This document shows, piece after piece, positions 14,255 to 28,367 of a stretch of DNA of 28,824 nt; within the stretch, counting starts at the first letter, position 1; each line of letters opens with the position of its first letter. The notes below the pieces were generated by a model. It saw nothing but the letters and a program-made list of their open reading frames with translations. It made no database searches and was not told the origin of the DNA. Source of the stretch: a virus. The position numbers and the translations under genes were made by a program. The stretch covers positions 1 through 28,824 of IMG/VR virus record IMGVR_UViG_3300020203_000072, one strand, 5' to 3'.

Positions 14255-14866
14255 CTAGTAAGAAAAGAAATATAGTTGCCTTATGGTTTTAGTACTGAGA
14301 TCTCGATCACCATGATCTCCAATTATTTCGCCACCATCTTCTCCTAATAAAATACTAGACCTTTTTACTTCAATGAAAAGGCTTATTAGATAAGCAATGA
14401 ATAAGCCTATTGTAATATATCCGGGACTATTTTCACTGATGTATTGACCTAAACAAAAGGCAACTGTAGCGCCAACGAGTAATAAAACAAGAAGTCTAAT
14501 TGCATCATTGAAAAAATGAGTAATTTTTAATGCGTGCAGCTTTATCAGCATCATTTTAAGGTCCTTGCTGCGCTCCTCAACATCGTACTTCGACAGGGTT
14601 TTTTGTAGATCAATGCAATATGTAGCTCTACTGATTAGTGCTGATAAAAAAAGAGCTATAGCTACTATAACAAGTAGTACTGGTAAAATAACAAAGAGAT
14701 TTATTGAATAAGCATTGAATAAGATCATGATTACTCCTATTTGTAGACCAATGAAAATCGTAGCTCTACGGATTAGTGCTGATAAAAAAGGAGTTATAGC
14801 TGCTATAACAAGTAGTACTGGTAAAATAACAAAGAGATTTATTGAATAAGCATTAAATAAGATCAT
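14255..14866 (-). CDS. Multi-pass membrane protein made by tandem duplication
   Basis: This 203-residue protein has four to five hydrophobic segments. Residues 1-45 and 47-90 are near copies, each beginning MILFNAYSINLFVILPVLLV and containing FLSALI-RAT. The rest has a charged helix (LSKYDVEERSKDLKMMLIKL), then RLLVLLLVGATVAF and GYITIGLFIAYLISLFIEV. The duplication carried its ribosome site: AGGAGG precedes the first ATG (14866) and AGGAGT precedes the internal ATG (14728), so a shorter product may also be made. The C-terminus LYFFSY ends just where another frame encodes a further hydrophobic stretch, suggesting frame loss. Function unknown; an exclusion or holin-like role is speculative. 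Confidence 0.6.
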   Translation of the reverse strand: MILFNAYSINLFVILPVLLVIAAITPFLSALIRRATIFIGLQIGVIMILFNAYSINLFVILPVLLVIVAIALFLSALISRATYCIDLQKTLSKYDVEERSKDLKMMLIKLHALKITHFFNDAIRLLVLLLVGATVAFCLGQYISENSPGYITIGLFIAYLISLFIEVKRSSILLGEDGGEIIGDHGDRDLSTKTIRQLYFFSY

Positions 14867-14878
14867 GATTCCTCCTAC
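14603..14878. repeat. 138-bp tandem direct duplication (two copies)
   Basis: Copy 1 is about 14603-14740 and copy 2 about 14741-14878. They are nearly identical over the central stretch and differ by scattered substitutions elsewhere. The period is 138 bp, or 46 codons, so the frame is kept. The unit includes the ribosome site and the start codon of the membrane gene, so the ancestral gene began at what is now internal residue Met47. Confidence 0.85.
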
Positions 14879-17734: not shown

Positions 17735-18988
17735 ATGAGCTATAAAAGAGTTAGCCCAACGCCTGTCATAGAGGGTGGCACTGGTGCTCAAACACTTACA
17801 GGTGTCTTAACAGGCAATGGAACTGGTGCCATTACAGCCAACGCAGTGACTCAGTTTGGCACAGTTATTGCTGGAGCAAGTAATGCACTTTCATCAGTTG
17901 CTCCGTCTGTTACCATTGGAGTCCCATTAATATCGCAAGGTGCTGCTGCTAATCCAGCGTATGGAACAGTGGTTGTTGCTGGTGGTGGTACTGGTGCTCA
18001 AACACTTACGGGTGTCTTAACAGGCAATGGAACTGGTTCTATAACAGCCAACGCAGTGACTCAGTTTGGCACAGTTATTGCTGGAGCAAGTAATGCACTT
18101 TCATCAGTTGCTCCGTCTGTTACCATTGGAGTCCCATTAATATCACAGGGTGCTGCTGCTAATCCAATATATGGAACAGTGGTTGTTGCTGGTGGTGGTA
18201 CTGGTGTAACCACTATGACGACTGCATTTGCTCCTGTATGTGCTGGAACTACAGCTACTGGTTCATTACAGGTTGCCTCAACGGGAATTTCTACGAGTGG
18301 TAATGTTCTTACGAGTACTGGTGCGTCATCACTTCCTACGTGGCAAGTTCCTGCTGGTGGTGGGTTTGCGAGTATTGTCTCTCGAGTTTTCACTAGTAGT
18401 GGAACGTATACCCCAACAGCTGGTATGAAATTTTGTATTGTTGAGGCACTTGGTGGTGGCGCAGCTGGTGGTGGAACAGCTGGTGCAGGTAACCATGGAG
18501 CTGGTGGTGGTGGAGCTGGTGGATATTGCAGAAAAGTAATTTCTGCTGCTGATATTGGCGCCTCTCAGGTCGTTACTATTGGTGCTGGTGGAGTCGGAGT
18601 TGTTAATACTACTGGTGGTAATGGTGGTAATACTACATTTGGAGCGATACTTACTGCAAATCGTGGACTTGGAGGTCTTCCAAGTACTAGTAGCGGAGTA
18701 GGTGCTCGTGGTGGAGATGGCGGTACAGCTACTGGGGGAGATGTTAACGTCACTGGGCAATTAGGAGATAACGGTTTTGCTGCTACTGGGGCAAGTACTC
18801 CTTATATGGGTGGCAATGGAGCAAACACTATGTATGGATCGGGAGGATTCGGAGGGTACCTTGCAGTCAATCGGGGTGATGGAACGTTGTACGGATCGGG
18901 CGGCGGAGGAATCGGGAGTAATGGTGCCTCTGGTGTAGGTGGTGGCTTAGGTACAGCAGGTATTGTAATTGTTACCGAGTATATTTAG
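17735..18988 (+). CDS. Tail fibre with internal 70-residue duplication and Gly-rich tip
   Basis: This 417-residue protein begins MSYKRVSPTPVIEGGTGAQT, a start shared with the next fibre. Residues ~15-154 are two near-identical 70-residue repeats, each with LTGVLTGNGTG, ANAVTQFGTVIAGASNALSS and VPLISQGAAANP. A linker with LTSTGASSLPTWQVPAGGG follows, then a ~210-residue Gly-rich C-terminus: VFTSSGTYTPTAGMKFCIVE, GGGGAGGYCRKVISAADIGA and ending GIVIVTEYI. This tip is paralogous to that of the 20471-21814 product. Gly-rich tips in T4-like adhesins form polyglycine sandwiches with receptor-binding loops (established knowledge), so this end may be the adhesin. Ribosome site AGAGG. Confidence 0.75.
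   Translation: MSYKRVSPTPVIEGGTGAQTLTGVLTGNGTGAITANAVTQFGTVIAGASNALSSVAPSVTIGVPLISQGAAANPAYGTVVVAGGGTGAQTLTGVLTGNGTGSITANAVTQFGTVIAGASNALSSVAPSVTIGVPLISQGAAANPIYGTVVVAGGGTGVTTMTTAFAPVCAGTTATGSLQVASTGISTSGNVLTSTGASSLPTWQVPAGGGFASIVSRVFTSSGTYTPTAGMKFCIVEALGGGAAGGGTAGAGNHGAGGGGAGGYCRKVISAADIGASQVVTIGAGGVGVVNTTGGNGGNTTFGAILTANRGLGGLPSTSSGVGARGGDGGTATGGDVNVTGQLGDNGFAATGASTPYMGGNGANTMYGSGGFGGYLAVNRGDGTLYGSGGGGIGSNGASGVGGGLGTAGIVIVTEYI
17778..18197 (+). repeat. 210-bp tandem duplication in the fibre gene
   Basis: CTGGTGCTCAAACACTTAC starts at 17781 and again at 17991 with one following change. The same junction (CTGGTG) recurs at 18201 before diverging. The period is 210 bp, 70 codons. The copies are almost identical, so the event is recent or maintained by recombination. 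Confidence 0.9.
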
Positions 18989-19004
18989 AAAATAGAGGTT
19001 TAAT

Positions 19005-20468
19005 ATGAGCTATAAAAGAGTTAGTCCAATGCCTGTCATAGAAGGTGGTACTAACGCTACTTCAATGACTAATACAGATGGCGTTGTTTTTTTTAATGGA
19101 ACAAGTCTTGCTACGACAGCTGTTGGAACTGCGACTCACGTTTTGACGAGTAATGGCGCTGGAAATGCTCCAACGTTTCAAGCTGGTGGCGGTGGTGGTG
19201 GTGGAATTACAACTATTACTGGTAATACTGGTTCTGCTACTGGAGCAAACGTTACTTTAACTGGTGGTACTTCCGGTGCTATATTTACTGGATCTGGTTC
19301 AACTGTAACTGAAAGTTTTGACTTTCTTGCGTTGCCTGCAACTACTTCAACTAATGGACAAGTTAGAATTGGTGGAAATACTATTCTTCATGCATATGGT
19401 ATTAATAATATTTATGCAGGACATCTATCGGGCAATTACACTCTTACTGGCCAGATTAATTCTTGCCTTGGAAATTGGTCATTAAGAAATGCTACAACTG
19501 GTGGTGGTTCAGTTGCTGTCGGTTTTAATGCAATGGGTGAAGGAGTATTGACGGGTAATTTTAATTCTGCTGTTGGTGTTGGTTCATCGAAGTCTATGAC
19601 TTCAGGCACTGGCAATTGCTCATTTGGATATGAAGCTTTGGCCCAACAAACTGTAGGATCGGTCCACGTAGCTATTGGCCAAAGTGCTTTGTCTAGACTT
19701 GTTGGTGGATCAGATGGAAGTATAGGTATTGGATTTCAAGCAGGTGTTTCTCTTACTACTGGACAGGGTATATCTATTGGATTTCAAGCTATGGGTAATA
19801 CTGGTGCAAGTGCCACTGGAATTAACAATATCGCAATTGGTTATCAGACATTGTATTTTGCTAGTTCGGGTGAATACAACGTCGCAATTGGAACATTCGC
19901 TTTACTTGATCTTAGAACTGGTAGAAGGAATATTGCGATAGGTGCAAGCCATGCTGGTTTTAACTATAACACTAGTGAGAGCAATAATATTTTATTGAAT
20001 AATGCCGGAATAATTGCAGACTCTAACACATTACGCATTGGTAGTGCAACCGGTGCTGGTGATGATCAACTTAACAGGTCATTTATTCATGGTATTCGTG
20101 GTATAACCACTAGTGTAAATGATGCGATTGCAGTTCTTATAGATAGTGCTGGTCAACTTGGTACCGTATCATCATCTATTCGCTACAAGGAGAACGTTGT
20201 TGATATGGGTGATGCAAGTTCACCTGTGTTATCGCTTCGTCCGGTATCGTTTGATTTTATCGGTAAACCGTCATATAAAAAACAAATTGGTTTGATTGCA
20301 GAAGAAGTTAAAGAGATTATGCCAGATCTTGTTGTTCATAATATTGATGGTGAAGTTGAGTCTGTTAAGTATCATGAACTTCCGATATTACTTTTAAATG
20401 AATTACAAAAAGCTATTAAACGTATTGAACAGCTTGAAGCAAAACTGTCTTCAAACTGTAAAGGGTAA
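19005..20468 (+). CDS. Tail spike/fibre with YadA-like head repeats and S74 chaperone
   Basis: This 487-residue protein shares its first 15 residues with the preceding fibre. Residues ~165-350 contain about ten YadA-head-type repeats (SVAVGFNAM, HVAIGQSAL, SIGIGFQAG, NIAIGYQTL, NVAIGTFAL), predicted to form a left-handed beta-roll trimer. The C-terminal ~98 residues are a Peptidase_S74 intramolecular chaperone: S390-S-I-R-Y-K395 gives the Ser/Lys dyad spacing known from endosialidase tails, followed by LSLRPVSFDFIG, IGLIAEEVKEIMPDLV and a C-terminal coiled coil (LLNELQKAIKRIEQLEAKL). It should trimerise the fibre and then cleave itself off before S390. The autotransporter-like head is an adhesin-type module. 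Confidence 0.88.
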   Translation: MSYKRVSPMPVIEGGTNATSMTNTDGVVFFNGTSLATTAVGTATHVLTSNGAGNAPTFQAGGGGGGGITTITGNTGSATGANVTLTGGTSGAIFTGSGSTVTESFDFLALPATTSTNGQVRIGGNTILHAYGINNIYAGHLSGNYTLTGQINSCLGNWSLRNATTGGGSVAVGFNAMGEGVLTGNFNSAVGVGSSKSMTSGTGNCSFGYEALAQQTVGSVHVAIGQSALSRLVGGSDGSIGIGFQAGVSLTTGQGISIGFQAMGNTGASATGINNIAIGYQTLYFASSGEYNVAIGTFALLDLRTGRRNIAIGASHAGFNYNTSESNNILLNNAGIIADSNTLRIGSATGAGDDQLNRSFIHGIRGITTSVNDAIAVLIDSAGQLGTVSSSIRYKENVVDMGDASSPVLSLRPVSFDFIGKPSYKKQIGLIAEEVKEIMPDLVVHNIDGEVESVKYHELPILLLNELQKAIKRIEQLEAKLSSNCKG

Positions 20469-20470
20469 CT

Positions 20471-21814
20471 ATGGCGAATCGTAAACCTTTATCGTATCTG
20501 GGAATAGCTCAGCCTACTCCTCCAAATCAAGTAGTAAGTGATCGTTCGCCAACTGCTAATGATTATCAAGGATTTAACATTGGTGACAGGTGGGTTGTAC
20601 CTACAGGTTTAATTGCTCCTTCTCAGCAAGAATGGATCTTGATGAGTAAGGCTCAAAACCAAGCTGTATGGGTTGATGTTATTGCTGGTAATTCGCCAGC
20701 AACGTATAACGATCATGAGTTATTAGTTGGTACAGGAACAACTACTATTCACACTATTGGTAATGCAGCTGCTGGACTTCCATTGTTGAGTCAAGGTGTT
20801 TCGGCTGACCCATCTTATGGTGTACTGGCTGTGCCTGCTGGTGGAACTGCTAATTCTTCTTTTGCTGCTTTTACTCCTATAATTGGAGGAACAACAGCGA
20901 CTGGAGCTTTGCAATCAGTTGCATCTTTAGGAGTCTCTGGTCAAGTGCTCACAAGTAATGGTGCAGGAGTTGCTCCAACATTCCAAGCTGCTGGTAGTGG
21001 TGTCTTGCCAGTCCCTGGTGGTGGTACTGGAGATACGAGCTTTACTGCTTATGCTGTTGTTACGGGTGGTATCACATCGGTTGATCCTTTGCAGACTGTT
21101 GCTTCATTGGGAACTACAAATCAAGTTTTAACTTCTCAGGGAGCTGGATTGTTGCCAATTTGGGCAAATAATGAAGCTGGTACTGGATTTACAAGTATCG
21201 TCTCTCAAGTTTTTACTGGTAGTGGAACGTATACCCCAACAGCTAATATGAAATATTGTATTGTTGAGGCGGTTGGTGGTGGCGGTGCTGGTGGTGGAAC
21301 AGATGGTGCTGGTAATCATGGAGCTGGTGGTGGTGGAGCTGGTGGGTATTGTAGAAAAGTAATTTCTGCTGCTACTATTGGCGCCTCTCAGGTCGTCACT
21401 ATTGGTGCTGGTGGAGTTGGAGTTCCTAATTCTACTGGTGGTAATGGTACTAATACTACATTTGGGGCGATACTTACTGCTTCTGCTGGGCTTGGAGGAC
21501 CTCCTAGTATTCTTGCTAGTGGTCGCCCTGTTGTCGGCGGCGTTGGTGGTGCAGCCGCTGGTGGAGATGTTAACGTTCCTGGACAAGCAGGAGGTAATGG
21601 TATGTCTGCTCCTGCTATAAATTCACTTTATATGGGTGGTACTGGTGGAAACACTATGTATGGCAATGGAGGAGTTGGAGGTTTTGTAGGTATTTCTCCT
21701 AGTGTCGGAATTGGATATGGATCTGGTGGTGGAGGAATTGGTTCATTAGGTCTTTCTACTGCTGGTGGTGCAAATGGTACATCAGGTATTGTAATTGTTA
21801 CGGAATACGTTTAA
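20471..21814 (+). CDS. Tail fibre with Gly-rich adhesin-like tip
   Basis: This 447-residue protein has a distinct N-terminus with FNIGDRWVVPTGLIAPSQQE and AQNQAVWVDVIAG, likely the virion-binding domain. The middle (~85-230) has repeats of the type SLGVSGQVLTSNGAGVAPTF and SLGTTNQVLTSQGAGLLPIW, each with a GGT...T...PLQ.VA pattern. The last ~210 residues (VFTGSGTYTPTANMKYCIVE, GGGGAGGYCRKVISAATIGA, GIVIVTEYV) are paralogous to the tip of the 17735-18988 fibre, also at the DNA level. It starts two bases after the S74 fibre stop. Two fibres with one type of tip but different shafts suggest alternative receptor-binding proteins or a branched apparatus. Confidence 0.75.
   Translation: MANRKPLSYLGIAQPTPPNQVVSDRSPTANDYQGFNIGDRWVVPTGLIAPSQQEWILMSKAQNQAVWVDVIAGNSPATYNDHELLVGTGTTTIHTIGNAAAGLPLLSQGVSADPSYGVLAVPAGGTANSSFAAFTPIIGGTTATGALQSVASLGVSGQVLTSNGAGVAPTFQAAGSGVLPVPGGGTGDTSFTAYAVVTGGITSVDPLQTVASLGTTNQVLTSQGAGLLPIWANNEAGTGFTSIVSQVFTGSGTYTPTANMKYCIVEAVGGGGAGGGTDGAGNHGAGGGGAGGYCRKVISAATIGASQVVTIGAGGVGVPNSTGGNGTNTTFGAILTASAGLGGPPSILASGRPVVGGVGGAAAGGDVNVPGQAGGNGMSAPAINSLYMGGTGGNTMYGNGGVGGFVGISPSVGIGYGSGGGGIGSLGLSTAGGANGTSGIVIVTEYV
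21187..21814 (+). repeat. Dispersed copy of the Gly-rich fibre-tip sequence (partner 18363-18988)
   Basis: The two ~627-bp segments align throughout. For example GTGGAACGTATACCCCAACA, then GCT, and later GGCGCCTCTCAGGTCGT are identical in both. Divergence is concentrated in the middle of the tip (about 18660-18800 against 21480-21620), where receptor-contact loops would be expected. Confidence 0.75.
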
Positions 21815-22180: not shown

Positions 22181-22366
22181 TTAGTTGTCGGTAATAGCAA
22201 ATGTTTCATACACTTTGCTTTCTTTTATAAGTTTTTTTGTAGGTTTTTTTGCAAGTTCTTTTTTATGCAATAAACCAATAAAAGGAAGGTTAAATATTAT
22301 GAATATGGTTAGTATAGAATATTGAATTCTAAATAGCTTTTTAAGCATCTCTCTAATTGATATCAT
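22181..22366 (-). CDS. Small basic single-span membrane protein
   Basis: This 61-residue protein begins MISIREMLKKLFRIQYSIL, with a membrane span at ~15-33 (YSILTIFIIFNLPFIGLL), then a very lysine-rich tail (HKKELAKKPTKKLIKESK). Its ATG overlaps the preceding stop (TAATG), so it is translationally coupled and needs no strong ribosome site. It is last in the recombination operon. No family recognised. The position suggests an accessory function unrelated to the annealase. Confidence 0.5.
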   Translation of the reverse strand: MISIREMLKKLFRIQYSILTIFIIFNLPFIGLLHKKELAKKPTKKLIKESKVYETFAITDN

Positions 22367-22602
22367 TATCTACCCAATATATTGTCTACTTCTTCTTTAA
22401 TAACATCACTTCCAACGCAATTAGTAAATGTTCCAATGAATAGCCATTTTGGTTGTTCGTCTTCATGTTTATTTATCTGCACATACAGTTCAAAATCATC
22501 GCCTATTGAAACTTTACATGCGGTACCATATGAACATTCATCAAATGAAGATGGTGCGCTATGCCTTAAAATTATCGCTTCGTCATTACTCATAGGTTTC
22601 AC
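22366..22602 (-). CDS. Small soluble hypothetical protein
   Basis: 78 residues from a GTG at 22602, or 75 from ATG 22593 (MSNDEAIILRH); neither has a strong ribosome site. The sequence is acidic, with a likely beta core: CKVSIGDDFELYVQINK and PKWLFIGTFTNCVG, ending KEEVDNILGR. There are three Cys but no CxxC motif. It lies seven bases after the annealase gene and overlaps the next gene. I do not recognise it. Co-transcription with ERF suggests a small recombination accessory or regulator, which is inference only. Confidence 0.5.
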   Translation of the reverse strand: MKPMSNDEAIILRHSAPSSFDECSYGTACKVSIGDDFELYVQINKHEDEQPKWLFIGTFTNCVGSDVIKEEVDNILGR

Positions 22603-22609
22603 TTCTTTT

Positions 22610-23233
22610 TTATTTTGGTTCTAGGTTAATAAGTTCTCTGATTCGTGCCATTCCTCTAAGGAATGATGATTTTGGCATTTCGCTTAAATTGTCTATGTTA
22701 ACGCTTGTTAGGATACGTTGTTTGATGCTTGGGTGTTTTTCTAGTTCGTATTCTAGTTGTTCAAGTTGTTCTTTGGATATTTTTTCTGCAATAACATTTT
22801 GAGTGTATGGTTGTTGTGCGATATGTCGTGCTGGTTCGCTAGCGGCATTACCATCATCATCTTCGCCAACTACAACACCAATAAGGGATGTGTAGCACAT
22901 ACGTTTTAGGTAAGTGTTATAGCTGCTTAATGATTGTACGTCTTGCTTTTGTGGGTTGTGCATTGCTTTTGATTTGATCCATTGGCCACTGGAATGGAGC
23001 AGCATGGTAATTAAGAATGAGACATTGTGTTCATCGACTACTGGTGATTGAATCACGCTGAGTCCGTACTTACTAAGTGCTGGTCTTGATGCGGCTATGA
23101 TTGCTTCAAGGTCTGCATAAGAGCTTTTGAAGAATGGATTCTTTTGGTTTTTCCCTGCTACTGTCATTTCGCCTTGGGCTTTAGATAATGCTGTAGCTAA
23201 TTCGTTTATGTTTTCTGACATTAATTGTGACAT
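22610..23233 (-). CDS. erf: ERF-family single-strand annealing protein
   Basis: A 207-residue protein. The ERF core runs from ~8 to ~130: ELATALSKAQGEMTVAGKNQ, KNPFFKSSYADLEAIIAASR, ALSKYGLSVIQSP, then ITMLLHSSGQWIKSKAM, QSLSSYNTYLKRMCYTSLIG and VVVGEDDDGNAA. This follows the family order (KAQ, NPFFKS-YADL, GL-V-Q, L-H-SG-W, DDDGN). ERF proteins form rings that anneal complementary single strands in phage recombination and genome circularisation (established knowledge). The YNTYLKRM segment replaces the more usual TYARRY, a mild divergence. The C-terminal ~70 residues are a helical tail (EQLEQLEYELEKHPSIKQR). AGGAAC precedes the ATG. It is encoded with a ComM-type helicase two genes upstream. 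Confidence 0.9.
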   Translation of the reverse strand: MSQLMSENINELATALSKAQGEMTVAGKNQKNPFFKSSYADLEAIIAASRPALSKYGLSVIQSPVVDEHNVSFLITMLLHSSGQWIKSKAMHNPQKQDVQSLSSYNTYLKRMCYTSLIGVVVGEDDDGNAASEPARHIAQQPYTQNVIAEKISKEQLEQLEYELEKHPSIKQRILTSVNIDNLSEMPKSSFLRGMARIRELINLEPK

Positions 23234-23240
23234 ATTGTTC

Positions 23241-24311
23241 CTATAGTCCTAGAGACTTGTTAATTTCATCTAACATCTTAAGCATTGCTTCATCGCTGTC
23301 TAAGTTTTCTGATGATTCTTCGATATATTCTTTTTGTTTCATTTTTTTGTTTACATACAGTGCAACTGAGGATGCTGACATCCCAAGTTTTTTTGCGATA
23401 TCAACATATGACCAATGTAATTTAAATAGTTTTATTGCTTCATCAACTTTGCTTTGATCAAAACGAGGCATGGAAACTCTATCAATTCCTAATTTTTTTA
23501 TCCCAGCTGCTATAAAACTTATTACATTAGTAGAGGTTTTAAATTTTTCTGCTATTTCTCGTCTTGATAGTTTTGAGTTTTTTATAAGGTGACTAATCTC
23601 CATCATTTCTTCTTTTGTTAAAGAAAAGTCTTTTATTTTTCTGACTACTAATTCATTGTGATCGCTGTCTATGCTAATGCATTTAGGATTACATTTATTG
23701 ATGTAGGTATACTTGTTTTGATACATATTATCTTCAAATTTTTTATGCAGTTCGTAATTAAACTTAAATGCTAATACTGTTTTTAATCTTTTTTCATGAA
23801 AAACTGGGCGTTTGTATTTTTTGTCAAATGTACCATTCCATATAAGGCAGTTGCTTTCTGTATCATTTGCGCAATATTTTTTAAATCTACACACAGTGGA
23901 ACAAGCTTTTAAAACTCTCCTTGATGAACCTTCGCAAATTTTGTTACAAATGTCGCAGTTAACAATTGTTGTTGCATCTTGGTACGACTTTTTTCTGCAT
24001 GATCTTGAGCAATATTTTTTATCTGCTCTTCCATTGGTCATGGCATTGCCACACATTAAGCATAATAATACTGGAGCTCTACACTTCTTTCTGCGTTCCG
24101 ACTTTTTTCTGCATGATATTGAGCAATATTTTTTATTTGAACTTCCACTGGTTATGACATTGCCACACATTAAGCATGGTAATAATACTGGAGCTCTACA
24201 CTTCTTTCTGTATGTCGACTTTCTTCTGCATGATATTGAGCAATATTTTTTATTTGAACTTCCACTGGTTATGGCATTGCCACACATTAAGCATTTGGTT
24301 TCACTTTCCAT
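23241..24311 (-). CDS. Tandem zinc-finger protein with degenerate HNH-like and HTH domains
   Basis: A 356-residue protein. Four C-x2-C-x13/14-C-x3-C fingers: C7/10/24/28, C46/49/63/67, C84/87/101/105 and C119/122/137/141. The first three are near copies (CLMCGN...KKYCS-SCRKKS). Residues ~154-222 resemble the CW-W-G...HR-AYEL...C-NP-C-NP-HL core of phage HNH endonucleases (NCLIWNGTFDKKYKRPVF, FKFNYELHKKF, NKCNPKCISIDSDHNELVV), but the usual first catalytic His is not evident. Two HTH-like segments follow: LSRREIAEKFKTSTNVISFI and SYVDIAKKLGMSASSVALYV. A DNA-binding homing-endonuclease derivative, possibly nuclease-dead and repurposed, fits best. Its ATG abuts the ComM stop, so the two are coupled. 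Confidence 0.65.
   Translation of the reverse strand: MESETKCLMCGNAITSGSSNKKYCSISCRRKSTYRKKCRAPVLLPCLMCGNVITSGSSNKKYCSISCRKKSERRKKCRAPVLLCLMCGNAMTNGRADKKYCSRSCRKKSYQDATTIVNCDICNKICEGSSRRVLKACSTVCRFKKYCANDTESNCLIWNGTFDKKYKRPVFHEKRLKTVLAFKFNYELHKKFEDNMYQNKYTYINKCNPKCISIDSDHNELVVRKIKDFSLTKEEMMEISHLIKNSKLSRREIAEKFKTSTNVISFIAAGIKKLGIDRVSMPRFDQSKVDEAIKLFKLHWSYVDIAKKLGMSASSVALYVNKKMKQKEYIEESSENLDSDEAMLKMLDEINKSLGL
24071..24304 (-). repeat. 117-bp tandem duplication encoding zinc fingers 1 and 2
   Basis: The stretch beginning CTGGAGCTCTACACTTCTTT at 24071 recurs at 24188, a 117-bp period (39 codons), with few differences. The third and fourth fingers are older, diverged copies. Recent finger gain at the DNA level is the simplest reading. 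Confidence 0.85.
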
Positions 24312-25838
24312 TTATTTCTCATACTTATACATAATGGCTTCGGTGATATGTTTTACTTCTATTTTATCTGATCCATCTATATCAGCTATGGTGCGTGATA
24401 GCTTTAACACTTTATGGTAAGCACGCATTGATAAGTTTAGTCGAGTAAATGCTTTCTGAATGATTATTTCTGCTTCTGGTGTTAGTGTGCAGAACTGTTC
24501 TATGTCGTTGATATTCATGTTGCTATTGCTCTTGGCGTAACCAAATCTCTTGTTCTGGGTCAAGATTGCTTTGTCGACGCCAGCTTTTAGTTCTGTAGCG
24601 CTAATGGATGATGAGATTACTTTGTTGGTTGCTTCTGTATAGTCCAGGGTTTTAACGCCAATACGCATATCAATACGATCAAGCAATGGTCCTGATAATT
24701 TACTTTGATATAAGTTGACCTTGGATGGTGAGCACTTGCACTGTTTAAGTTTTTCTCCATAAAAACCGCATGGGCATGGATTGTATGCAGCCACAAGTAA
24801 GATGTCTGTTGGGAATTGAATTGATTCTTTGGCTCGTGCGATATTGATGTGTTTATTTTCGATAGGTTCTCTTAAGGATTCTAGTGACTCTTTTGAGAAC
24901 TCAGTAATTTCATCAAGGAACAATATACCGTTGTGAGCGAGGCTTATTTCCCCGGGAACTATGTATGCTCCGCCCCCGATAAGAGCTGTTCGTGTAGTGG
25001 AGTGATGAGGGCTTCTAAAAGGTCTATCTGCTATGATGTCTTTACCATCTAGTTTTCCGCCAACGGAATATATTTTTGTAGTCTGTATAATTTCATCAAA
25101 TCTCATATCTGGCATGATAGTTATTATGCATTTAGCCAGCATAGTTTTACCTGATCCTGGAGATCCACTAAATATAATATTATGTTTACCGGCTGCTGCT
25201 ATTTGAGCTGCTCTTTTGGCATAGTTTTGGCCTTTGATGCTATCAAATGAAAGGGAGTTGTCTTTTTGTTTTTTGATGAATGCGTTTAGATCAACTTTAG
25301 TTGGCTTTGTAGTAAGTTTTCCAGTGACCGTTTCAAATATTTCTTTTAAGTGAGATAAGCCGATAACTTCAACATCTTTAATGAGTGCTGCTTCTTGGCT
25401 GTTTCCGACTGGTAGAATGATTCGTTGTTTACCAAGTTTTAATGCGTCACTAGAAATAGCTAGTACTCCTTTGATGGGGTTAATGGATCCATCAAGGGAT
25501 AGTTCTCCAATAATAATAGAGCTATTGAGGTAAGAGTCAGATAGTCCTAGTGCGCCAATAGATTTGAGTATTCCAAGAGCAATTGGTAGGTCGAAAAGAG
25601 TACCTTCTTTTCGCAGTGATGCTGGGCTAAGATTAACTGTTATTTTATGGTTGGGTAATATGAAGCCATTATTCTTAAGTGCTGTTGTGATTCGTTTGCG
25701 ACTCTCTCTTATAGCAGTATCTGGTAGTCCAACGATAGTGAACTCACTTCTTGAGCTACTTTCATCAAAATCTACTTCTACAGTTACAAGGTGCGCGTTC
25801 ATTCCGGATATGGTAGCTGAGTATATTTTTGTATGCAT
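24312..25838 (-). CDS. comM: ComM/YifB-family AAA+ branch-migration helicase
   Basis: 508 residues, full length for the family. The N-terminal Lon-protease-like domain (~1-170) has FTIVGLPDTAIRESRKRI and KITVNLSPASLRKEGTLFDL. The Mg-chelatase-type AAA+ core has Walker A GSPGSGKT (225-232), RPFRSPHHSTTRTALIGGG (272-290), Walker B ILFLDE (305-310), the zinc-type cluster CPCGFYGEKLKQCKC (355-369) and LLDRIDM with R388. The C-terminal helical lid ends AYHKVLKLSRTIADIDG. ComM is a hexameric branch-migration helicase acting in natural transformation of bacteria (established knowledge). Finding it between phage genes, upstream of ERF in one operon, suggests a phage strand-exchange module. All key residues are intact. 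GAAGG lies eight bases before the ATG. Confidence 0.93.
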   Translation of the reverse strand: MHTKIYSATISGMNAHLVTVEVDFDESSSRSEFTIVGLPDTAIRESRKRITTALKNNGFILPNHKITVNLSPASLRKEGTLFDLPIALGILKSIGALGLSDSYLNSSIIIGELSLDGSINPIKGVLAISSDALKLGKQRIILPVGNSQEAALIKDVEVIGLSHLKEIFETVTGKLTTKPTKVDLNAFIKKQKDNSLSFDSIKGQNYAKRAAQIAAAGKHNIIFSGSPGSGKTMLAKCIITIMPDMRFDEIIQTTKIYSVGGKLDGKDIIADRPFRSPHHSTTRTALIGGGAYIVPGEISLAHNGILFLDEITEFSKESLESLREPIENKHINIARAKESIQFPTDILLVAAYNPCPCGFYGEKLKQCKCSPSKVNLYQSKLSGPLLDRIDMRIGVKTLDYTEATNKVISSSISATELKAGVDKAILTQNKRFGYAKSNSNMNINDIEQFCTLTPEAEIIIQKAFTRLNLSMRAYHKVLKLSRTIADIDGSDKIEVKHITEAIMYKYEK

Positions 25839-25840
25839 TA

Positions 25841-25896
25841 TTTACGCCTTCTTTTTAGTAGGTCTAAATTTACGCCTTCTTTTTAGTAGGTCTAGT
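25841..25896. repeat. 28-bp tandem direct repeat at the ComM start
   Basis: TTTACGCCTTCTTTTTAGTA with a following GGTCTA occurs at 25841-25868 and 25869-25896; 26 of 28 bases agree. A 28-bp period shifts the frame, so the upstream small gene reads the two copies as different residues (LLKRRRK and RPTKKKA). The copy nearest ComM supplies its ribosome site. Confidence 0.85.
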
Positions 25897-25985
25897 TCTA
25901 GACAAACAGCTGAGCAAAATAGACGTTGTTCATCTATTGGTGATGAACATGTTAGACAATGAGATGTTATTGTTGATGGTTGCAT
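25842..25985 (-). CDS. Stand-alone small zinc-finger protein
   Basis: 47 residues from ATG 25985 (AAGAGAA upstream); an earlier in-frame ATG at 26027 overlaps the promoter. It contains HCLTC-x10-CSAVC, the same C-x2-C...C-x3-C treble-clef pattern as the four fingers of the protein two genes downstream, then a strongly basic tail (LLKRRRKFRPTKKK). It is first in the operon and stops three bases before the ComM start. It may bind DNA or a partner. The basic tail was lengthened by the 28-bp repeat. Confidence 0.55.
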   Translation of the reverse strand: MQPSTITSHCLTCSSPIDEQRLFCSAVCLELDLLKRRRKFRPTKKKA

Positions 25986-26022
25986 AGTCGTTCTCTTTTT
26001 ATTGGGTTTACTTACTAATATA

Positions 26023-26051
26023 ATCATAACATGTATTGATGTGATTGTAAA
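26023..26051 (-). promoter_or_regulatory. Leftward promoter of the recombination operon
   Basis: On the minus strand TTTACA (26051-26046), a 17-base spacer and TATGAT (26028-26023) match the sigma70 boxes in five of six positions each. It lies 38 bases upstream of the small zinc-finger gene start. Confidence 0.65.
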
Positions 26052-26104: not shown

Positions 26105-26305
26105 ATGTTGAATTTTAGAGATGTGAGCGATTCATTGTGGGATCGATTAAAAGCTGTGATCAAGAGAGACAAGGGTAGTTTAGAGTCGGTAGCAAAGGGT
26201 ATTGGTATATCCATTACGGCGTTACGAACGTTTATGACTGGTGCTAGATTGCCTCAAACAAAAACGATTGCAAGAATAGAAGAATATTTACAGTTAAAGG
26301 AGTAG
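26105..26305 (+). CDS. Cro/C1-type helix-turn-helix regulator
   Basis: 66 residues. The HTH runs from ~20 to ~62: GSLESVAKGIGISITALRTF gives helices 2 and 3, then MTGARLPQTKTIARIEEYLQ. This is the compact single-domain Cro-type fold with no dimerisation or cleavage domain. The ribosome site GAGGA is five bases from the ATG. It is first in the rightward operon and next to two back-to-back promoters, so it likely represses one or both. No integrase or cleavable CI-type repressor is visible, so lysogeny is not supported by the window. The 183 bases that follow (26306-26488) hold no recognisable gene, only the hairpin at 26436. Confidence 0.8.
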   Translation: MLNFRDVSDSLWDRLKAVIKRDKGSLESVAKGIGISITALRTFMTGARLPQTKTIARIEEYLQLKE

Positions 26306-26488: not shown

Positions 26489-26710
26489 ATGAGCAGCCCT
26501 AAAAAAAATCAGTCATGGAAGTCAATAAAAAACTCCAAAAGAGTTAGTCATGAAAAACTAGTAATATCAATGAAATCAATGAAATCAATGAAATCAATGA
26601 AATCAATGAAAATCAGTGATAACAATGAAAAACTAGTGATGTCAATGAGTAAACCAAAAGAGTTGGTAGTGAAGTCAATGAGCAACCCAAAAGGAGCCAT
26701 TCATGAATAA
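26489..26710 (+). CDS. Low-complexity basic protein or iteron region
   Basis: 73 residues, extremely rich in Lys, Ser and Met, with SMKSMKSMKSMKSM in the centre and the duplicated phrases EKLV.SM and KRV/KELV. AAGGA precedes the ATG by five bases and the stop overlaps the next gene start by eight bases, both suggesting real translation. On the other hand the protein repeat simply reflects a 9-bp DNA iteron, so the selected feature could be the DNA, for example an origin. No fold or homologue recognised. Confidence 0.4.
   Translation: MSSPKKNQSWKSIKNSKRVSHEKLVISMKSMKSMKSMKSMKISDNNEKLVMSMSKPKELVVKSMSNPKGAIHE
26566..26610. repeat. Five exact 9-bp iterons (ATCAATGAA)
   Basis: ATCAATGAA is repeated five times without error at 26566-26610. 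Degenerate copies continue downstream (AATCAGTGA, GTCAATGAG twice). A longer repeat, ATGAAAAACTAGT plus RATRTCAATGA, occurs at about 26550 and 26626. The cluster lies directly upstream of an HTH initiator-like gene, the usual place for a replication origin. Confidence 0.7.
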
Positions 26711-27473
26711 CTATAAGCTCAAAAAAGCCTTTTGGCAAGGTATAATTTCAAAGCTCACTGAGAAGCAGCGTCTTTGTTTAGATTACATGGTGAAATTGTT
26801 TACCTTTTTTAATTGTATTTTTGTTTCACAACAAGCAATAGCAGATTGTATTGGCTTATCTCGTAAAACGATTAATGAATATATTAAGTTATTTTGTGAG
26901 ATGGGATTGATTCAGAAGTTTCGTCGTTTTTGCAAGAGCTTTAAAAAATCTAACGTGTATAAATTCTCAAGTATCTTTACTCGGTTTAAGGATGCTCTTT
27001 CTTTTTATCTTCCATCGTTGAAGGGACTTAAAAAAACTCCTTTGTACGCTGATCAAACTCAAAAGGTTACACTAAGTATTAAAGGAAGTAATAACACTAT
27101 CCAAACAGAACAGAATATTAACAAAAACTCTTCAATTCTTCCCTCTTCCCCCGGTTTTTTAAACCAAGGTGTGCTTTATGTATTACCTGCAGTCGATATT
27201 GCGTCATCTTATTGTGAAAAGTATTACTTTCAGCAGCAGGTTGGTTGTGATTTGACGTCTTCTCATGCAAAATTAACCGAAGATCAGTGGGATGAGATTT
27301 TTGATCCAGCTCCCAAGTTTACTGTTATGGAGCTATCAGATTGGTATAAAGAAGAAATGAAAACGCTAAAAAGGTTGAAAGAGGAGTTGTATGAATCAGA
27401 CATTATCGCAGCAGCATGCAGCGAAGTTTCTACGGTTGAACTTATGGGGCCAGATTGCTATTACAGTTTTTAG
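26703..27473 (+). CDS. HTH replication-initiator-like protein
   Basis: A 256-residue protein. The N-terminal ~100 residues form a winged HTH: ISKLTEKQRLCLDYMVKL, then FVSQQAIADCIGLSRKTINE and YIKLFCEMGLIQKFRRFCKS, followed by basic KSFKKSNVYKFSS. This is the HTH_36/Rep-type arrangement common in phage and plasmid initiators and in replication O-like proteins. A polar linker (~120-150, NNTIQTEQNINKNSSILPSS) leads to a C-terminal acidic helical region (TEDQWDEIFDPAP, WYKEEMKTLKRLKEELYESD) that may recruit a helicase. AAAGGAG precedes the ATG. It lies just after the iteron cluster. Its last 83 bases overlap the next gene. Confidence 0.65.
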   Translation: MNNYKLKKAFWQGIISKLTEKQRLCLDYMVKLFTFFNCIFVSQQAIADCIGLSRKTINEYIKLFCEMGLIQKFRRFCKSFKKSNVYKFSSIFTRFKDALSFYLPSLKGLKKTPLYADQTQKVTLSIKGSNNTIQTEQNINKNSSILPSSPGFLNQGVLYVLPAVDIASSYCEKYYFQQQVGCDLTSSHAKLTEDQWDEIFDPAPKFTVMELSDWYKEEMKTLKRLKEELYESDIIAAACSEVSTVELMGPDCYYSF

Positions 27474-27978
27474 TAATGAAGCAATAGAATATGGCATTAG
27501 CCAATGTAAATTATTTAAGGATGCTAAGAACCAGTTTGCCTATTTTCATTCGCAGGCGCGTCAGCATTGTATTAAAAATGGTGTATCTCTTAACTACACC
27601 CGATGCTATGACCTACAACAACAGCATAATATGCCAGCTAGTATAGATATAAGTTCGTCTAAAGATCTTATTGATGAAACGATGCCTAAAGTGGTGCAGG
27701 AATTACAACAAACTAAGTTCTATTCGCATAAGGAAATAGTTCTTGACCATAATGAGCAGTGTCGACAGTGGCATGACATGGTAGTTAATTGGAATGCTGT
27801 TGTTGATGTGAAAAAGAAGTGTGCTAAAGGATATGAGTTAACGTATCCAGGTTATTTGAGTTGGATGAGCAAGATTCCATTATCTACCTTGTTGGATCAA
27901 GACCTTCCAGATACACTGCTATATATAGATGAATCAAAGACTACGTTACTTGATGCAATTAATAGCTTAAGGAAGTAA
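27391..27978 (+). CDS. Unknown replication-region protein
   Basis: This 195-residue, mostly helical soluble protein starts at ATG 27391 behind AGAGGAG, inside the previous gene (83-base overlap in another frame). Stretches include HAAKFLRLNLWGQIAITVFS, NQFAYFHSQARQHCIKNG, MPKVVQELQQTKFYSHKEIV and YPGYLSWMSKIPLSTLLDQD. No Walker, nuclease or zinc motif is present. Between an initiator-like protein and RusA, a helicase loader or replication accessory is the first guess, but this is context only. The stop overlaps the RusA start by one base. Confidence 0.6.
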   Translation: MNQTLSQQHAAKFLRLNLWGQIAITVFSNEAIEYGISQCKLFKDAKNQFAYFHSQARQHCIKNGVSLNYTRCYDLQQQHNMPASIDISSSKDLIDETMPKVVQELQQTKFYSHKEIVLDHNEQCRQWHDMVVNWNAVVDVKKKCAKGYELTYPGYLSWMSKIPLSTLLDQDLPDTLLYIDESKTTLLDAINSLRK

Positions 27979-28367
27979 TGAAGATATTTATTATACCTGG
28001 GGACCCCACACCACTTGCTCGGCCACGATTCTCTCATAAAAAGATATATGACTCGCAAAAGAATCTAAAACTCATTGCATCTCTGAATGTTCAACAGCAA
28101 CAAAGCAATGATCCGCTTCTTCAAGGAGCTCTTCAACTAGATGTAACATTCTATATGAAGGCGCCAGCATCAATATCAATCAAACGAAGACAACTACTCT
28201 ATGGAACTAATCACATATTTAAACCAGACCTAGATAACTTAATAAAATTCATATGCGATATATGTAACAACGTGACATATGAAGATGATTGTATTATATC
28301 CGTTATAAACGCTAAGAAAACATACGATGAAAATCCAAGGACCGAATTTACATTGAGAAATATATGA
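27978..28367 (+). CDS. rusA: RusA-type Holliday junction resolvase
   Basis: A 129-residue protein. IPGDPTPLARPRFSHKKIYD (6-25) matches the family N-terminal P-P-x-x-RPR pattern. HIFKPDLDNLIKFICDICN (79-97) gives D84, D86 and K90, and YEDDCII gives D103/D104, together the acidic metal site and lysine of RusA nucleases. RusA cuts four-way junctions as a dimer (established knowledge). In phages it removes branches before packaging, which agrees with the next gene being a likely terminase subunit. The start overlaps the previous stop by one base (TAATG) and the stop overlaps the next start (ATGA). Confidence 0.88.
   Translation: MKIFIIPGDPTPLARPRFSHKKIYDSQKNLKLIASLNVQQQQSNDPLLQGALQLDVTFYMKAPASISIKRRQLLYGTNHIFKPDLDNLIKFICDICNNVTYEDDCIISVINAKKTYDENPRTEFTLRNI

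Follow-up and report, generated by a model that had tools for sequence, protein, structure and literature searches.

Phage annealase modules such as P22 Erf and lambda Red/Rap place an annealing protein and a junction resolvase together in the early region, and T4 encodes a branch-migration helicase of superfamily 2, UvsW. The G35P module of SPP1 likewise includes a Holliday-junction resolvase (PMC3485210). ComM is the hexameric AAA+ branch-migration helicase of bacterial natural transformation; it drives three-strand branch migration in vitro, and its recruitment and loading have been stated as an open question (PMC11612176). Here we analyzed the 28,824-nucleotide virus record IMGVR_UViG_3300020203_000072 of IMG/VR (the window), in which comM lies in a leftward gene unit with erf, encoding an ERF-family single-strand annealing protein, and beside a rightward unit with the resolvase gene rusA. 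The phage ComM shares its domain order and catalytic motifs with ComM/YifB of natural transformation (TIGR00368; Vibrio cholerae and Legionella pneumophila, 8RXD). However, known copies are chromosomal and serve RecA-mediated transformation, whereas the phage copy adjoins an ERF or RecT annealase and a dedicated partner gene. Compared with the P22, lambda and SPP1 modules, the window has two extra components, the hexameric branch-migration helicase and its partner, and no exonuclease was recognised; UvsW is likewise a phage-encoded motor for recombination but is unrelated to the AAA+ ComM hexamer. From gene content, gene order and sequence conservation, we think it probable that a phage lineage took over the ComM of its host as a partner-recruited branch-migration motor acting on annealed joints, beside a core of ERF and RusA. 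As an initial annotation of the window had supposed, we found no phage recombination system with ComM in a search that covered open-access literature.

An intact comM in a phage annealase unit

The window ComM is full length and, as initially annotated, intact. It passes the curated NCBIfam model TIGR00368 (548.7 bits; cut-off 362.4), on which four other phage ComMs score 445-554 bits, and it matches the Pfam families Mg_chelatase (287.8 bits), ChlI (135) and Mg_chelatase_C (88). A Lon-like domain (PF13541, residues 20-146) is followed by the AAA+ domain (PF01078, 198-401), which holds an embedded CxC...CxC, and by Mg_chelatase_C (PF13335, 414-505). The best solved relative, Legionella ComM (PDB 8RXD), is also the top Foldseek match (E=4.7e-32), with MCM listed after ComM; the AlphaFold models are of modest confidence (predicted local distance difference test scores of 64 and 62) and serve only as support. 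Walker A, Walker B, sensor 1, GPLLDRID with the DRID arginine and LSMR with the sensor-2 arginine are all intact, and 86 of 88 near-universal residues in the alignment blocks are retained (76-84 in the other four phage ComMs). Conserved residues are kept across phage ComMs that share 40-55% identity. The ComMs of L049 and L202 are 75% identical, with a nonsynonymous distance (dN) of about 0.20 and a synonymous distance (dS) of 3.2, which is saturated. Judged by these comparisons, comM has long been present in phages and is maintained by purifying selection.

The genes of the leftward unit, in order of transcription, and those of the divergent unit are as follows.

25842..26027, minus strand: 61-amino-acid zinc-ribbon/treble-clef protein, first leftward gene (PF09889 DUF2116, 28.3 bits; cut-off 26.8)
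24312..25838, minus strand: comM, 508-amino-acid AAA+ helicase of the YifB/ComM family (TIGR00368, 548.7 bits; 8RXD, E=5.8e-107)
23241..24311, minus strand: 356-amino-acid zinc-finger and helix-turn-helix protein, candidate ComM partner (HTH_24, E=1.6e-5; PHROG_1271, 3.7e-8; PHROG_8, 1.5e-6)
22610..23233, minus strand: erf, 207-amino-acid ERF-family single-strand annealing protein (PF04404, 67.8 bits; cut-off 25; PHROG_2324, 8.9e-40)
22366..22602, minus strand: 78-amino-acid conserved protein with a GTG start, homologues of which follow erf in relatives
22181..22366, minus strand: 61-amino-acid small open reading frame, possible last gene of the leftward unit, no family match
26105..26305, plus strand: 66-amino-acid helix-turn-helix protein, putative repressor, in the divergent promoter region (PF01381, 21.1 bits, below the cut-off of 23)
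26703..27473, plus strand: DnaD-like/replication-initiator protein (PHROG_186 DnaD-like helicase loader, 3.4e-7)
27978..28367, plus strand: rusA, RusA-family Holliday-junction resolvase of the divergent unit (PF05866, 84 bits; cut-off 22.8; PHROG_140, 4.5e-31)

The positions and strands of comM, the zinc-finger gene and erf, and of rusA in the neighbouring rightward unit, agree with the initial annotation. Going by their spacing and conservation, the leftward genes are predicted to form an operon: comM begins 3 bp after the 61-amino-acid zinc-ribbon gene and abuts the zinc-finger gene (0 bp), erf and the 78-amino-acid gene each follow after 7 bp, and the last two reading frames overlap by 1 bp. 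A promoter scan gave no excess over shuffles. Homologues of the 78-amino-acid protein follow erf in L043, L044, L159-L163 and L165-L167; across the lineage, a conserved protein of 60-98 amino acids without a family match stands after erf, a candidate partner of the annealase.

A second IMG/VR record, G001 (37,022 bp), holds this phage in circular permutation relative to the window (99.6-99.8% identity). Its ends carry an exact 127-bp repeat, the trace left when a circular or circularly permuted genome is assembled. Relative to G001 the window is missing 8,080 bp (terL, portal and others). Gene order is identical in the two records; comM is mid-genome in G001, and the genome around it encodes the terminase and portal together with major head, tail and fibre proteins. 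Because G001 carries this phage as a circularly permuted 37.0-kb genome, the possibility that the window is a junction with host chromosome beside the operon, which the initial annotation had raised, is excluded.

Other features of the window include a 138-bp repeat pair (14602-14877; 93% identity) that extends into a 203-amino-acid minus-strand open reading frame by an Arc-like repressor, a fibre cluster that is mosaic among relatives (17735-21814; Gly-rich domains and a Peptidase_S74 chaperone), and a low-complexity open reading frame that lies between the divergent units and contains (KSM)n repeats (26489-26710).

Distribution in the lineage and origin of comM

The window phage is a member of a large uncultivated lineage of tailed phages. 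IMG/VR holds at least 418 relatives of its portal protein, of which the 80 kept are 67-99% identical, and the nearest portal relatives in named phages are about 25% identical. In the general plan of the lineage, a leftward unit ends in erf and the conserved small protein, and a divergent rightward unit carries genes for helix-turn-helix, DnaD-like, RusA, TerS-like, TerL and portal proteins. Full-length comM is present in eight phages of the lineage: the window phage (G001), L043, L044, L045, L049 (the same record as L165), L202, L205 and L201. Portal homologues are found in G001, L044, L045, L049 and L205, and in L201 at 43-46%; L202 is tied to the lineage by TerL, and L043 by RusA, TerS-like protein and ERF.

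The initial annotation had proposed searching phage genomes for comM next to erf, recT or rusA. The order comM, partner, erf, small protein is found in the window, L043 and L044. The ComMs of L043 and L044 are just 52% identical to that of the window, and the recurrence of the order in these phages is beyond chance. In L205 the order is comM, partner, the small open reading frames p71 and p93, and recT (PF03837, 102 bits), with overlaps of 8-17 bp throughout; the same helicase is thus found with two different annealases, ERF (window, L043, L044) and RecT (L205). RusA adjoins in the window, L043, L044, L202 and L205. On the portal tree the presence of comM requires at least four changes, and the nearest sisters without comM are G148 for the window (TerL 74%, ERF 56% identical) and G115 for L044 (ERF 68%, TerL 70%).

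Matches elsewhere were set aside. In a collection of phages, screened for named phages with ComM, the matches come from faecal scaffolds without annotation, from bacterial records or from truncated copies; two Evtepia phages (PV036445.1, 58270-59169, recorded as a complete genome, and PV036427.1) have a C-terminally truncated ComM (residues 1-308). The IMG/VR matches L203, L204, L206 and L055 are outside the lineage and without its portal. Divergent ComM-like proteins (about 31-36%) occur in viral contigs of 95-100 kb (L055:9806-11443, L209:9986-11473), and in L055 the position of the DRID arginine is not Arg. Another type of element, on contigs of 72-74 kb, has a comM-like gene about 41% identical to that of E. 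coli (L208:9529-11869, L212:9529-11437), with a gene of the PHROG class 'DNA repair protein' before it and, in L208, an SSB gene after it; the L208 protein may be ATPase-dead because its Walker A reads GSGRT (Lys to Arg). Within the lineage, a Band 7/SPFH-domain protein is encoded between comM and terL in L045 (8498-9292), and L164 (8-1488) holds the portal gene of the L044 phage as two separate open reading frames, owing to either a frameshift error or an insertion.

The nearest cellular ComMs are from Dependentiae, a bacterial phylum of intracellular parasites of protists. A ComM match is found in 90 of 101 Dependentiae genomes, some of them fragments only, with a best identity of 59%. The comparison with bacterial copies that had been suggested for the window places all eight phage ComMs inside the Dependentiae clade in trees of 65-72 ComMs (support 100/99). 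The window ComM belongs to a clade of ten rows together with L043, L044 and seven Dependentiae (99-100/99-100), and L201, L205, L049 and L202 form a second phage group (99/98). A topology in which the Dependentiae form a clade that excludes the phages is rejected by an approximately unbiased (AU) test (p=0.008). Constraining five phage ComMs to a single origin gives a tree that the test does not reject (p-AU 0.19), so we do not claim independent captures. On this phylogeny the phage comM gene is of Dependentiae origin, and from the origin of the gene the host of the lineage is probably a member of the Dependentiae. A ComEC-type competence protein is encoded in 94 of the 101 genomes. Portal homologues were found in none of them, in a prophage search without a positive control, and this empty result is weak evidence of a lytic habit. 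We found no described Dependentiae phage in the literature searched.

DNA-binding partner genes beside comM

In seven phages a gene for a DNA-binding protein lies downstream of comM, abutting it in the window and overlapping it by 4-17 bp in the others. The partners of the window, L043 and L044 are zinc-finger or zinc-ribbon proteins. Those of L043 and L044 share 27% identity; the window partner has no similarity to them and occupies a position equivalent to the partner gene of the other comM-bearing phages. It consists of Cys-rich N-terminal repeats (Pfam DUF2116 treble clef, E=0.009, below cut-off) and helix-turn-helix regions, and a search of the PDB with it returned chance matches only. 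Of its first description as "zinc-finger/HNH-like", the zinc fingers stand and the HNH part is doubtful: the sole basis for the latter is the PHROG_1271 match, which covers the Cys-rich part, and no Pfam HNH domain is matched even at E<=5. The gene holds a tandem duplication at 23985-24294 (period of about 114 bp, 92% identity), so the number of fingers has changed recently.

A second type of partner is found in L049, L202, L205 and L201 (two copies), and in L045, where it is divergent beside comM:

L201:11523-13552, PF07508/DprA-winged-helix partner
L205:11514-12119, PF07508/DprA-winged-helix partner
L202:4223-5308, PF07508/DprA-winged-helix partner
L049:11505-12596, PF07508/DprA-winged-helix partner
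L045:5737-6726, PF07508/DprA-winged-helix partner

These proteins share the DNA-binding 'Recombinase' domain (PF07508) of large serine recombinases (4KIS, 6DNW), and the fold of their body resembles serine-integrase DNA complexes such as 4KIS. The catalytic resolvase domain is missing: no Pfam match to it is found, and the N-terminal sequence is too short to hold one. A zinc ribbon is present in some and absent in others. The C-terminal part is related to DprA, the RecA loader of transformation, which consists of SAM, Rossmann and C-terminal winged-helix domains, the last reported to be important for loading in Deinococcus (PMC7314969). One L201 copy matches PF17782 DprA_WH (33.5 bits), and a profile built from the C-termini of six partners matches each of the 12 Dependentiae DprA proteins searched (best 1.7e-15). 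The reverse DprA profile finds the L201, L045 and L205 partners, with L202 marginal and L049 below threshold (hhalign 98.5%); for these last two the winged helix is supported via the partner alignment. By these profile matches, the partner of the five phages joins a DNA-binding region of the serine-recombinase type to a winged helix like that of Dependentiae DprA. The partners are not DprA because none has a Pfam match to the Rossmann domain (PF02481), which is replaced by the serine-recombinase region. No DprA winged helix was found in the L043 and L044 partners. In a search of 87 Dependentiae genomes, one half matches serine recombinases of about 500 amino acids and the other matches DprA, encoded apart from each other, and none of the matches listed is a single open reading frame spanning both. 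Strong homologues of the partner (E<1e-40) occur only beside comM among all loci examined.

A proposed role in phage recombination and its alternatives

Based on this arrangement, we propose the following pathway. ERF (RecT in L205) would anneal complementary single strands from phage DNA that is replicating or has terminal redundancy. The partner encoded directly after comM may then mark or open the joint and help to load ComM, whose hexamers would drive branch migration and lengthen the heteroduplex, so that a short annealed joint becomes stable. Finally, RusA would cut the resulting four-way junctions to give packageable concatemers. ComM and its partner would be an optional processivity module, and ERF and RusA the core.

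Several observations weigh against this pathway or limit it. The comM gene heads a unit divergent from erf in L049 and L202, lies between the DnaD-like gene and terL on the L045 fragment, where no annealase is seen, and is about 8 kb from a weak ERF-like gene in L201. The window partner is without the DprA winged helix. Action of ComM on ERF-annealed joints would be an extrapolation from the RecA-made D-loops of transformation. A PF13541 match, and hence comM, is missing from at least 23 relatives that carry ERF, so conservation in all relatives is rejected, the ERF/RusA route works without ComM, and comM is an accessory of that core module. The initial annotation was therefore right that a phage operon joins ComM and ERF with RusA next door, an arrangement that is real and recurs, but its system "built on ComM" is better described as one to which ComM is an add-on. 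Its further claim, that annealing, branch migration and resolution would be complete, is too strong because neither a 5'-3' exonuclease nor any other supplier of single-stranded DNA was recognised in the genome; replication or host enzymes may provide it.

In a more specific form of the proposal, which we put forward only tentatively, the phages rebuilt the DprA-ComM pair, with ComM and a loader made of a DprA winged helix and a serine-recombinase region (the zinc-finger protein in the window) acting on DNA annealed by ERF or RecT. If so, the winged helix would be the part of DprA that recruits ComM, which would answer how ComM is loaded.

An alternative that we regard as unlikely is that the captured ComM is an auxiliary (moron) gene acting on host transformation or repair, where it might, for instance, compete with host ComM or boost it and so alter how extracellular or phage DNA recombines, and that its place by erf just reflects the early operon. 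The host-type genes, the ComEC-type protein of most Dependentiae genomes, and the optional presence and variable position of comM all fit this view. Against it, comM is repeatedly in or beside an annealase unit, with two different annealases, and its partner is phage-specific, with a recombinase DNA-binding region replacing most of DprA in a fusion not listed in Dependentiae.

It is less plausible still, in our judgement improbable, that ComM is the replicative or restart helicase of the phage, with the DnaD-like protein or the partner loading it at the origin. ComM is related to MCM (as in the Foldseek listing; PMC11612176), a DnaD-like initiator is present, no replicative helicase was recognised in the phage, and the partners resemble site-specific DNA binders. 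However, the sisters G148 and G115 share the gene plan without comM, which means that replication can proceed without a phage helicase, and comM accompanies annealase genes more often than the DnaD-like gene.

We disfavour, as very improbable, the idea that comM is a passenger acquired by chance and being lost, without a phage function. Its patchy distribution and the long branches of phage ComMs, which evolve faster than host ones, could be read this way, but the eight open reading frames are intact, the window copy has lost just two of the 88 conserved residues, dN is far below dS between L049 and L202, and there are two phage-specific ComM groups as well as coupled partner genes. Lastly, although comM is a known insertion target of mobile elements and many other IMG/VR matches lie at contig ends or by an integrase, fusion of a chromosomal comM to a phage contig, as an assembly or provirus artefact, is dismissed by two records with identical gene order, one of them circularly permuted, and by seven more lineage members.

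The preferred reading, that these phages took over a host ComM to extend annealed joints, suggests a kind of phage recombination machine that has not been described before. Exonucleases and resolvases are known components of phage annealase systems, whereas we found no report of such a system with a ComM-type branch-migration motor. The recurring comM genes supply natural sets of ComM and annealase, and the coupled partner genes are concrete candidates for the recruitment and loading of ComM left open by structural work (PMC11612176). In addition, the lineage offers a well-supported genetic link between phages and Dependentiae.

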